A DNA stretch of 26,216 bases. It comes from a virus. The position numbers and the translations under genes were made by a program. Where the stretch lies: positions 1-26,216 of the IMG/VR virus record IMGVR_UViG_3300033993_000509. One strand, written 5' to 3'. Under the pieces are notes generated by a model. The model was not told where the DNA came from and did not search any database. It saw only the letters and a program-made list of their open reading frames with translations. The number at the start of each line of letters is the position of its first letter. The stretch's first letter is position 1. Shown here in pieces: positions 15,073-24,614 of this stretch.

Positions 15073-15099
15073 AAGGCTACACCCCTATTATGCACAAAT

Positions 15100-20395: not shown

Positions 20396-20425
20396 TGTAT
20401 ACCCCCAATTCTATCGGGATGTCAA
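20396..20425 (-). promoter_or_regulatory. Head-operon promoter (TTGACA-18-TATACA)
   Basis: A perfect -35 box TTGACA (20420-20425) overlaps the stop codon of the terminase gene, followed at 18 bp by TATACA (20396-20401) with GGGGG directly before it. The predicted start leaves a leader of about 17 bases with GAGGA before the ATG of the 920-aa gene. Confidence 0.65.
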
Positions 20426-21888
20426 TAATATTCAACAGGTTCCGTACTCGGCTCGTCTTCCTCATCATCATCGTCCGCCAACGACAGGAAGTTGCCCTGC
20501 CTGAAGCGGCTCCAAGCCATGACCGTGGAGTCCACTTGGTCGTCATAGGATCCAACAGGAAATGACGCGCATTCCTCAACAAGCTCCTCGGCCCACTCTT
20601 CATTCTCCGGGTACCAAATCATCCCGGATTCCAACAGCGGTGCAACAGCATTGGCCCGACTAACCTTATCCTGCCCTGATCGCCTGCCGCCCGGTGAGTA
20701 CATCGTCACAGGGATCCCGATCTTTCGGAGTTCCTGCTGCAGCGGCGTTCCAGTGGCCTTGGCCTCAATCAAAACATTGTCAGGGTTCCAGTACTGGTAC
20801 TCAGCCTTGGCGATCCGCTTTAATTCAGGAAAGTCCCACCGCCCGCGTTTGACGCCCAGCAAAATCAGATTCGGGCCCGAATCAGCATTCGGAGTGAACA
20901 CACCCCACGTTGTGATGACAGAGTAATCAGCAGACTCCTTCTTGGAATACGCCGTGTCATAGCTCTGGATGATGTACTCGCACGACGGCGGCTCATCATA
21001 CTGCCACTTCCTCCACCACTCGCGCTTCAAAATCGCGCCTTCAGAGTTCGTCGGCTGCTGCTGCCACTGAGCATTCCACTTGGGCAAACCAATGGAGAAC
21101 TTGACCTTCTCCAACTCTTCGATCTTCCAGTACCCCGGCCAAAGGGGCTTGCCCGACGGCAGAATTGCCGGGAACTCCAGCACCTCCCACTGATCAGCCT
21201 TGATATTGCTCTGCATCTTGAGCAAGCGGCCCGATACGTCGTCCGTCTTCCAGCGTGTATTGATCAGTATGATCGCTCCGCCCGGTTGCAATCGCTGACG
21301 AGGACCCGACTCGTACCAATCCCATGTGTTCTGCATCGCAGTGTCCGAGATCGCATCCTGCTCGTCCAAAATGTCATCCAACACGATCACATCACCACCC
21401 CGGCCGGTCATCGCACCGCCCTTACCAATAAAAAACGCTTCCCCACCCTTGTTCGTGTTCCACCGGCCAGCAGCCTTGGAGTCCGCCGACAAAGCAACCT
21501 GCGGAAACAACTCCTTGTACTTCTCGTCATCCACCAGATTCCGGATCATCCGGCCAAAGCGCTGTGCGAGTTCAGCAGTGTGCGACCCGACAATGAGCTT
21601 GGACTGCGGCAAACGGCCCATCAGATACGCCGGGAACAGATAACTGCCCAGCTGTGACTTGCCATGGCGCGGGGGCATCGCAATCATCAGGCGCTTGCAC
21701 TTTCCAGCAATGACCCGATCAAACGCTTCAGCAATCTTCTTGTGATGCTCACCAACCAGCATCTCAGGCCACACGTATTGACTGAAGTTCAGGAAGTTAT
21801 TCTGCGCTTTTTCCTGAGCTTCAATAGTCTTCAGGCGCAGTTCAAGGCGCAAGAGTTCCGCTTCGTGGTCAGGGGCTGATGGATGCAT
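20422..21888 (-). CDS. terL: Terminase large subunit
   Basis: The 488-aa packaging motor with ATPase and nuclease domains. The Walker A motif is MPPRHGKS (71-78), Walker B is VIVLDD (167-172), and INTRW (210-213) is the coupling motif. The RNase H-like nuclease has acidic residues Asp311 (SYDTAY), Glu375 (LIEAKATG) and Asp449/450/453 (GSYDDQVDS). The extreme C-terminus is highly acidic. It starts without a recognisable ribosome-binding site; another ATG five bases upstream is in a different frame. A GGGGGTATACT element lies 43 bases before the start. No small terminase subunit is visible on its upstream side. Confidence 0.95.
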   Translation of the reverse strand: MHPSAPDHEAELLRLELRLKTIEAQEKAQNNFLNFSQYVWPEMLVGEHHKKIAEAFDRVIAGKCKRLMIAMPPRHGKSQLGSYLFPAYLMGRLPQSKLIVGSHTAELAQRFGRMIRNLVDDEKYKELFPQVALSADSKAAGRWNTNKGGEAFFIGKGGAMTGRGGDVIVLDDILDEQDAISDTAMQNTWDWYESGPRQRLQPGGAIILINTRWKTDDVSGRLLKMQSNIKADQWEVLEFPAILPSGKPLWPGYWKIEELEKVKFSIGLPKWNAQWQQQPTNSEGAILKREWWRKWQYDEPPSCEYIIQSYDTAYSKKESADYSVITTWGVFTPNADSGPNLILLGVKRGRWDFPELKRIAKAEYQYWNPDNVLIEAKATGTPLQQELRKIGIPVTMYSPGGRRSGQDKVSRANAVAPLLESGMIWYPENEEWAEELVEECASFPVGSYDDQVDSTVMAWSRFRQGNFLSLADDDDEEDEPSTEPVEYY

Positions 21889-23417: not shown

Positions 23418-23881
23418 AGCATCCCCTTGAGTTCGGCCTTGATCCGGCGGGCGTCATCCCCGCGCCACGTGCCGGCATTGGCCAGAAAGTAAGCCACGAT
23501 TGAACGGGCGTCATCTTCACCGTATCGGCTGCTCATGCTGTCCATTGTGGCCATGGCCTGCAAGTACGGGCGCGCTCCAAAATACACTTTGGGCCACGTG
23601 GCCCGAATGTCGCGGGCAATGAACGACAGCATCCGCGGGCCGCGGTCCACGGCATCCGGTGCAAAGGCCGCAGCCGTGGACATTTTGAAACTGTCGGCAA
23701 GATCCTGCCCGCCGTTCTTCCCGATCCATCCGCGGCCGTCAAGCCCCAACGGGCCGCGGTCAATAGTGATGACGTTCTCGCCCCAGACAAGCTCAATCGA
23801 TTCATGGCCCGCGGCCAGTGCCTTACGAATAGCGGCCAGCAAAACCGGCTTGCTGGGCTTGTTTGTGTATTCGATGATCAT
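23414..23881 (-). CDS. Early 155-aa protein of unknown function
   Basis: A 155-aa protein (MIIEYTNKPSKPVLLAAIRK...) with a first domain built of helix and beta, a Gly-rich centre (GPLGLDGRGWIGKNGG) and a C-terminal helical block (SSRYGEDDARSIVAYFLANA, TWRGDDARRIKAELKGML). The last block resembles small phage proteins of unknown function. The ATG overlaps the previous stop (ATGA, 23878-23881). The gene is crowded with CCGCGG sites and includes a 14-bp palindrome (23591-23604). Confidence 0.72.
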   Translation of the reverse strand: MIIEYTNKPSKPVLLAAIRKALAAGHESIELVWGENVITIDRGPLGLDGRGWIGKNGGQDLADSFKMSTAAAFAPDAVDRGPRMLSFIARDIRATWPKVYFGARPYLQAMATMDSMSSRYGEDDARSIVAYFLANAGTWRGDDARRIKAELKGML

Positions 23882-24288
23882 GCTGTCACCTCTGTATTCA
23901 GCTGGGCCATGATGCCATCATATTGCCCCCGTTGCCCGCTATCCAGTGCCCCAAGCGTAGTAAAGGGGCTACTCCCCTTTCCCCAGCGCTTCACGACGGA
24001 CCAGCCCGCGCCAATGACATAGACACCATTGTCGAAGTTGTCACAATCCAGTTGTTTTAATTGGCCTATGCCAACGCCAGTGTCAGACATGGTCCCCATA
24101 AACTCACAAATTAAGCCGCAAAGCCGCGCCATAGCATAGGATTTGTCACCCGCCGGATCCCGATATCGGCGGGCTTTGGCCGTATCCAAAAATGCAAGCA
24201 CTGATTCAAGGCCTCCATTCCAATGAACGTAAATGCCCACGCCAGTGGTTTTTGACGCGGAAGCGGTAATAACTGCACGGTTTCCCAT
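23878..24288 (-). CDS. Early protein of the MGNRAVIT-HWNGG family
   Basis: A 136-aa protein whose start MGNRAVITASASKTTGVGIY and following VHWNGGLESVLAFLDTAK are diagnostic of a family found on phages and plasmids of many bacteria. It also contains the typical middle (ARLCGLICEFMG, TGVGIG) and end (DNGVYVIGAGWSVVKRWG). No function is established. It is the first gene of a three-gene unit, downstream of the parS-like site, with the leader AGAAAGGATAGAG two bases before the ATG. Confidence 0.8.
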   Translation of the reverse strand: MGNRAVITASASKTTGVGIYVHWNGGLESVLAFLDTAKARRYRDPAGDKSYAMARLCGLICEFMGTMSDTGVGIGQLKQLDCDNFDNGVYVIGAGWSVVKRWGKGSSPFTTLGALDSGQRGQYDGIMAQLNTEVTA

Positions 24289-24330: not shown

Positions 24331-24360
24331 AATATACCCCCGCCACGGGCCGCGGGCCAA
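24331..24360 (-). promoter_or_regulatory. Early promoter P4 (TTGGCC-18-TATATT)
   Basis: The -35 box is TTGGCC (24355-24360) and the -10 box TATATT (24331-24336), with an 18-bp spacer whose end is GGGGG next to the -10. The predicted transcript start (about 24324) falls at the foot of a 5-bp hairpin with one wobble pair. A CCGCGG site lies in the spacer. It drives the three-gene HWNGG unit. Confidence 0.5.
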
Positions 24361-24408: not shown

Positions 24409-24424
24409 TGTTTCACGTGAAACA
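24409..24424. promoter_or_regulatory. parS: Exact match to the canonical chromosomal parS (ParB-binding) site
   Basis: The 16-bp perfect palindrome TGTTTCACGTGAAACA equals the conserved parS sequence bound by ParB (Spo0J) near bacterial replication origins. By simple arithmetic, an exact 16-mer is expected about 6 times in a million windows of this size. No parA or parB gene is in the window, so a host ParB or a phage gene elsewhere would have to bind it. The site lies 49 bp upstream of a -35 box and next to tandem palindromes. Confidence 0.8.
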
Positions 24425-24448
24425 GGGCCATAAATCATGGCCCGCGGA

Positions 24449-24507
24449 CCTAAGTTAGTGAGCGCTCACTTACATCCACGGCCCTAAGTTAGTGAGCGCT
24501 CACTTAC
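24449..24507. repeat. Two 25-bp direct repeats, each with a 14-bp palindrome
   Basis: Identical copies lie at 24449-24473 and 24483-24507, 34 bp apart start to start. Each contains the perfect palindrome AGTGAGCGCTCACT (24457-24470 and 24491-24504). Two identical dyads in tandem without a gene around them are most simply operators or replication/partition sites for a dimeric protein. The half-site is like those bound by TetR-family repressors, which is inference. They lie upstream of the parS-like site and of the promoter for the HWNGG-family gene. Confidence 0.85.
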
Positions 24508-24614
24508 GCCGCGGCGCACTAAACACGCGCCGCGGACCACGCGCCACGTGCAGCACGGCATGCGTCAGGGACCACGGGGCAAGTTTACAGGCCGGTTTAA
24601 CCGAATTCAAAGGG

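Follow-up and report, generated by a model that had tools for sequence, protein, structure and literature searches.

Arrays of SlmA-type sites in phage genomes suggest that phages may block host division by DNA sites and not by a protein

Results

The repeat locus and its surroundings

The window analyzed here is the entire 26,216-bp virus record IMGVR_UViG_3300033993_000509 of IMG/VR, which is itself a genome fragment. The features at the locus are collected in Table 1. The 25-bp sequence CCTAAGTTAGTGAGCGCTCACTTAC is present twice, in identical copies with a start-to-start distance of 34 bp, as stated in a preliminary description of this DNA, and the intergenic location of both copies and the perfect parS site adjoining them are confirmed as well. 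Each copy contains the perfect 14-bp palindrome AGTGAGCGCTCACT (at 24457-24470 and 24491-24504), and no further copy of this palindrome is found elsewhere in the window, even when three mismatches are allowed. The promoter-like site of the leftward gene is located about 94 bp from the nearest palindrome site and is unchanged in relatives without the sites. In a scan of the window, a single DnaA box is found, at position 15088, and neither matS nor Noc-binding sites (NBS) are detected.

Table 1. Features of the window at and around the repeat locus
Feature	Position	Strand	Remarks
Terminase large subunit	20422..21888	-	65% identity to DSL-LC04; 52-57% to Pelagibacter phages HTVC027P/HTVC023P
Downstream flanking gene, 136 aa	23878..24288	-	No PHROG match; homologue in the related locus L169, 53% identity
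Promoter-like site (TTGGCC, 18, TATATT) of leftward gene 23878-24288	24331..24360	-	About 94 bp from the nearest palindrome site
Perfect parS, orphan	24409..24424	.	TGTTTCACGTGAAACA; 29 bp from the first 20-mer site
Two tandem 34-bp units holding both sites	24442..24509 (24442-24475, 24476-24509)	.	30/34 identical
First 25-bp copy, candidate SlmA-binding site 1	24449..24473	+	20-bp near-palindrome GTTAGTGAGCGCTCACTTAC at 24454-24473; 22/24 vs SBScons
Second, identical 25-bp copy, candidate SlmA-binding site 2	24483..24507	+	20-bp near-palindrome at 24488-24507
Upstream flanking gene, 234 aa	24731..25435	-	Partial match to phrog_2554 (unknown function)

It had been proposed in the preliminary description that the perfect conservation of the two copies implies selection. 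The identity holds, but the implication is weaker, as the copies look like a tandem duplication of a 34-bp unit. All four differences between the two units fall outside the 25-mer, and the probability of an unbroken run of at least 23 identical positions is about 0.04. Duplication therefore accounts for much of the identity of the 25-mers, and the pair in the window, when considered alone, supports selection on the core only mildly.

Similarity of the repeats to SlmA-binding sites

SlmA is a TetR-family nucleoid-occlusion factor, which stops bacterial division across the chromosome. The genome-wide consensus of its binding sites (SBS) is GTGAGTACTCAC (PMC3116907), and the tightest binding among three tested sites, with an apparent Kd of 25 nM, is observed for SBScons, AAGTAAGTGAGCGCTCACTTACGT (PMC4423959). 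Both window copies are identical to this 24-bp oligonucleotide at 22 of the 24 positions (two mismatches), and in a control with 20 shuffled windows the best matches reach 14-17 of 24 (7-10 mismatches). The palindromic 12-bp core of the SBS of Escherichia coli and Vibrio cholerae, GTGAG-YR-CTCAC, is present in the window as two perfect copies, with the CG centre that is also found in SBScons, and the extended form, GTWAGTGAG..CTCACTWAC, is shared as well. The window sites are nearer to the consensus than the natural chromosomal sites SBS17 and SBS12, and they differ from the sites of these two bacteria in being phage-borne, tandem and intergenic.

The literature points in the same direction, since AGTGAGCGCTCACT and its near variants occur in five of 5.39 million open-access papers, all five being about SlmA. 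In addition, the natural E. coli sites SBS17 and SBS12 score p <=5e-6 with a matrix built from the imperfect neighbours of the sites in phage arrays. Judged by this similarity, the sites of the window are very probably SlmA-type sites. The preliminary description had overlooked this specific match and had suggested operators of a TetR-like regulator of host or phage origin, an idea which is borne out in part, although a phage-encoded TetR protein is not found in the 72 viral records described below. A LacI-type operator (GTGAGCGCTCAC is shared with the symmetric lac operator) was considered as well and dropped, as all four of the exact genome hits adjoin TetR genes.

Comparison with the relatives of the window phage

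The phage is of a freshwater type, and its terminase groups it with DSL-LC04 and the Pelagibacter phages (Table 1). For the family comparison, 66 related loci were retrieved. The IMG/VR records L005 and L010 have the same sites and are 99.98-100% identical to the window over 5.4-9.1 kb. In L014, L081 and L082, whose flanks are 87-96% identical, parS, the promoter-like region and the neighbouring genes are kept and both palindromes are missing, the distance between shared anchors being 104 bp, compared with 171 bp (67 bp longer) in the window. Relatives of exactly this kind, with the flanking genes and without both palindromes, had been named in the preliminary description as the observation that would speak against its proposal. 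Clearly, the palindrome element is accessory, because it is absent from close relatives that keep the flanks. This does not prove a lack of function, because the site recurs intergenically in two other family members: L169 (terminase 59%) has one copy, with an identical 20-mer, between other genes and about 160 bp from parS, and in L227 (terminase 75%) two sites, one of them weaker, are located upstream of the terminase gene, about 26 bp from parS. The position of the site relative to the genes thus varies within the family. An SlmA-type site is found neither in the first 30 kb of DSL-LC04 nor in DSL-LC05.

Distribution of the site among viruses

The 20-mer with the CG centre, GTWAGTGAGCGCTCACTWAC, is found in 19 IMG/VR contigs and the 20-mer with the TA centre in 43, giving 60 distinct contigs when both centres are taken together. 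A control palindrome with scrambled arms is found in no IMG/VR contig, and the same holds for the same arms with the other (RY) centre steps. As the control palindromes are at zero, it follows that the phages keep the sequence together with its centre step, as known SBS do. The exact sites are located outside ORFs of at least 100 aa in 72 of 75 cases, 71% of random positions being inside such ORFs. At least two copies within 300 bp are present in 46 of 59 records, and the largest arrays have about nine copies, imperfect ones included. The array phages span several groups with different terminases.

The TetR_N domain (PF00440) is detected in none of 72 viral records (65 carrying sites plus 7 further members of the family, many of the records being fragments), and the binding protein should therefore be host-derived. 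A common phage-encoded DNA-binding protein was also considered and rejected, as clustering of the ORFs of the array phages gave no family shared by all, and no TetR_N.

When isolated phages and plasmids were searched with blastn, using the window repeat and an ideal three-site query, no true array was found. The blastn search with the array of L218 led to Rhizobium phages carrying a different but similar repeat, GTAAGTAAGCACTTACTTAT, which is located between a -10-like TATAA and the start codon in RHph_X66 (L249:3001-3025) and B1VFA (L250:3001-3042). This repeat resembles an operator for some other regulator.

The arrays of L203 (2225-2360) and L216 (6600-6820) also contain a shorter palindrome, GTTAGTG-NN-CACTAAC, whose arms are closer together by 4 bp than those of the SlmA-type sites. 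Several matches to sigma-54-type promoters (TGGCACG-N4-TTGC) are present near the arrays of L006 (1977-2205) and L008 (4490-4630), and the retrieved stretch of L219 has six of them. A second palindrome, TGCTGCACTGCAACA, which we take to resemble PhaR-type operators, is present in the phages L007, L011, L163 and L172.

Exact sites and SlmA in bacterial genomes

Across 257 Gb of genomes of bacteria and archaea, the CG-centre 20-mer has four hits, and all four are directly upstream of a TetR-family gene. None of the four TetR proteins is SlmA, as they score below the cut-off of the curated NCBIfam model, and the sequence can therefore serve TetR proteins other than SlmA. These four loci (L157-L160) belong to four distant bacterial groups, and in each of them the SlmA-type sequence is apparently the TetR protein's own operator.

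Of 60 Pseudomonadota genomes, 10 have an SlmA match above the curated cut-off, and among 14 controls E. coli alone has one. In 30 genomes the perfect core occurs at seven sites, six of which are in the seven strong-SlmA genomes (about 27% of the sequence), an enrichment with P ~0.002 in a small, post hoc sample. The RY-centre control is not enriched in the strong-SlmA genomes.

Orphan parS sites of the phage family

The parS at the position seen in the window is conserved in L081, L082 and L014, with one mismatch in L014, and in the isolate HTVC027P a parS with one mismatch is found in the corresponding part of the genome. Within the family, parS with at most one mismatch is present in 46 of 66 loci (41 of the sites within open frames, 11 elsewhere), the chance expectation for this DNA being about 0.01 sites by an arithmetic estimate. 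As the sites were picked by sequence, their codon table is biased, and the site count alone is used here. ParB (PF02195) is detected in none of 16 related or array-bearing records, some of which are partial. From these counts, together with the failure to find a ParB gene, it follows that the family carries orphan parS. The window site has the same perfect 16-bp consensus as the parS of chromosomal ParABS systems, from which it differs in being an orphan, and the orphan parS of the family presumably serves host ParB. The orphan sites recur both in reading frames (V-S/P-R-E-T) and in intergenic DNA in L013-L078, for example at L051:8831 and 8921 and at L029:5192 and 8997. In IMG/VR, the window phage and L227 alone have a parS and a perfect core 8-38 bp apart.

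Discussion

A possible division block by phage-borne sites

SBS-bound SlmA disassembles FtsZ polymers (PMC4423959). E. coli cells carrying two tandem SBS on a multicopy plasmid suffer a lethal division block that depends on SlmA, in which SlmA-SBS complexes are dispersed through the cell and SlmA is at about four times its native level (PMC3573117, PMC4117426). By analogy with these plasmids, we lean, on balance, towards the view that host SlmA binds the phage sites and that the resulting division block helps the phage. The palindromes would be high-affinity SBS for host SlmA, carried by the phage genome. Infection would multiply the phage DNA, and host SlmA would bind the paired sites on every copy. 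The DNA-bound SlmA would then be switched on as an FtsZ antagonist, by which Z-ring assembly would be blocked throughout the cell, and the host would be kept from dividing during phage production. Host ParB would likewise be loaded at the nearby parS. The presence of SlmA in the host, its binding to the phage copies, and a division block as the outcome, with a benefit for the phage, are the parts of this mechanism that we infer.

In this analogy, the tandem-SBS plasmids pUC-2xSBS and p2SBSK (PMC3573117, PMC4117426) have a natural counterpart in the replicating phage with its two near-ideal sites, plasmids and phage alike having two SBS on multicopy extrachromosomal DNA. The phage case differs in being natural, phage-borne and without a supplied overproduction of SlmA, and its effect on division is a predicted one. 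The proposed binding by SlmA is in agreement with the Gammaproteobacteria host predicted for DSL-LC04, the nearest named relative (PMC10611076). Counting against the proposed mechanism are the 10 of 60 sampled Pseudomonadota genomes above the SlmA cut-off, the non-SlmA nature of the chromosomal TetR proteins at exact sites, the approximately fourfold native SlmA level used for the plasmid block in E. coli, the existence of close relatives that live without the sites and the failure to find an isolated phage with such an array. Another point against it is that the phage sites are intergenic, like many operators, the chromosomal SBS of E. coli being found mostly in coding DNA. As a wider and more tentative proposal, it may be that many aquatic phages block host division without a dedicated protein, by near-ideal SlmA-site arrays that activate the host inhibitor, and that some of them add an orphan parS recruiting ParB, the phage DNA thus posing as host chromosome.

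T7 Gp0.4 is a phage protein that inhibits FtsZ, and to our knowledge the known phage division inhibitors are proteins. Lambda Kil, a phage protein inhibitor of FtsZ (PMC3961180), resembles the present proposal in the halt of host division during infection, but the agent proposed here consists of DNA sites activating a host inhibitor, with no phage protein. The NBS of Bacillus subtilis are also nucleoid-occlusion sites, and a multicopy plasmid with one NBS blocks division (PMC4726725); however, Noc is a member of the ParB family, unrelated to SlmA, and the sequences of the sites are unrelated. An earlier report of phage-borne SlmA sites was not found in the open-access literature searched. If the proposal is true, phages turn a cell-cycle checkpoint of the host against the host with bare DNA sites, a strategy previously seen only in laboratory plasmids, and the nucleoid-occlusion system gains a role in phage infection. 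It could then also be read from the sequence whether a phage targets hosts with SlmA. For ParB, the same question is posed by the orphan parS that recurs in the phage family.

Alternative explanations

The main rival is that the sites are operators, by which host SlmA or another host TetR-family regulator controls late or early transcription of the phage and ties expression to the state of the host. The exact chromosomal copies in front of non-SlmA TetR genes fit such a role, as do the intergenic location of the sites, which in several phages are at operon junctions near terminase genes, the activation of the chb promoter by SlmA in V. cholerae (PMC5519180) and the similar palindromes at gene starts of the Rhizobium phages. 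We nevertheless consider this explanation unlikely. The window sites overlap no detected promoter, relatives without the sites retain the promoter, and the placement relative to genes differs between the window, L169 and L227. In E. coli, lacZ is unchanged by an SBS upstream of its promoter (PMC3573117). Moreover, a conserved operator of a non-SlmA host protein should be common, whereas only two hits are found in 398 Pseudomonadota.

It is improbable that the repeats are iterons or centromere parts of a phage origin or partition element together with parS. This was a further suggestion of the preliminary description, and no specific support for it was obtained. The short distance between repeats and parS in the window and in L227, and the location of the arrays between terminase and early genes in one large phage group, would be compatible with this idea, but parS persists in close relatives that lack the repeats, the majority of array phages have no parS in the vicinity, family scans linked neither a replication initiator nor ParB to the arrays, and the motif is that of a known SlmA site and TetR operator. 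A purely positional role of SlmA binding, by which septa would be kept off the phage DNA or the DNA tethered near the nucleoid or membrane with no global block, matches the chromosomal role of SlmA, its binding to lipid membranes (PMC7468209) and a parallel positioning role that parS could have; it appears very improbable, as multicopy SBS DNA causes a global block in E. coli. That the repeat is neutral or a recent duplication lacking function, a reading for which the tandem 34-bp duplication and the absence from close relatives could be quoted, is scarcely credible in view of the zero hits of the control palindromes and the sequence-specific recurrence of the site in dozens of other phages.
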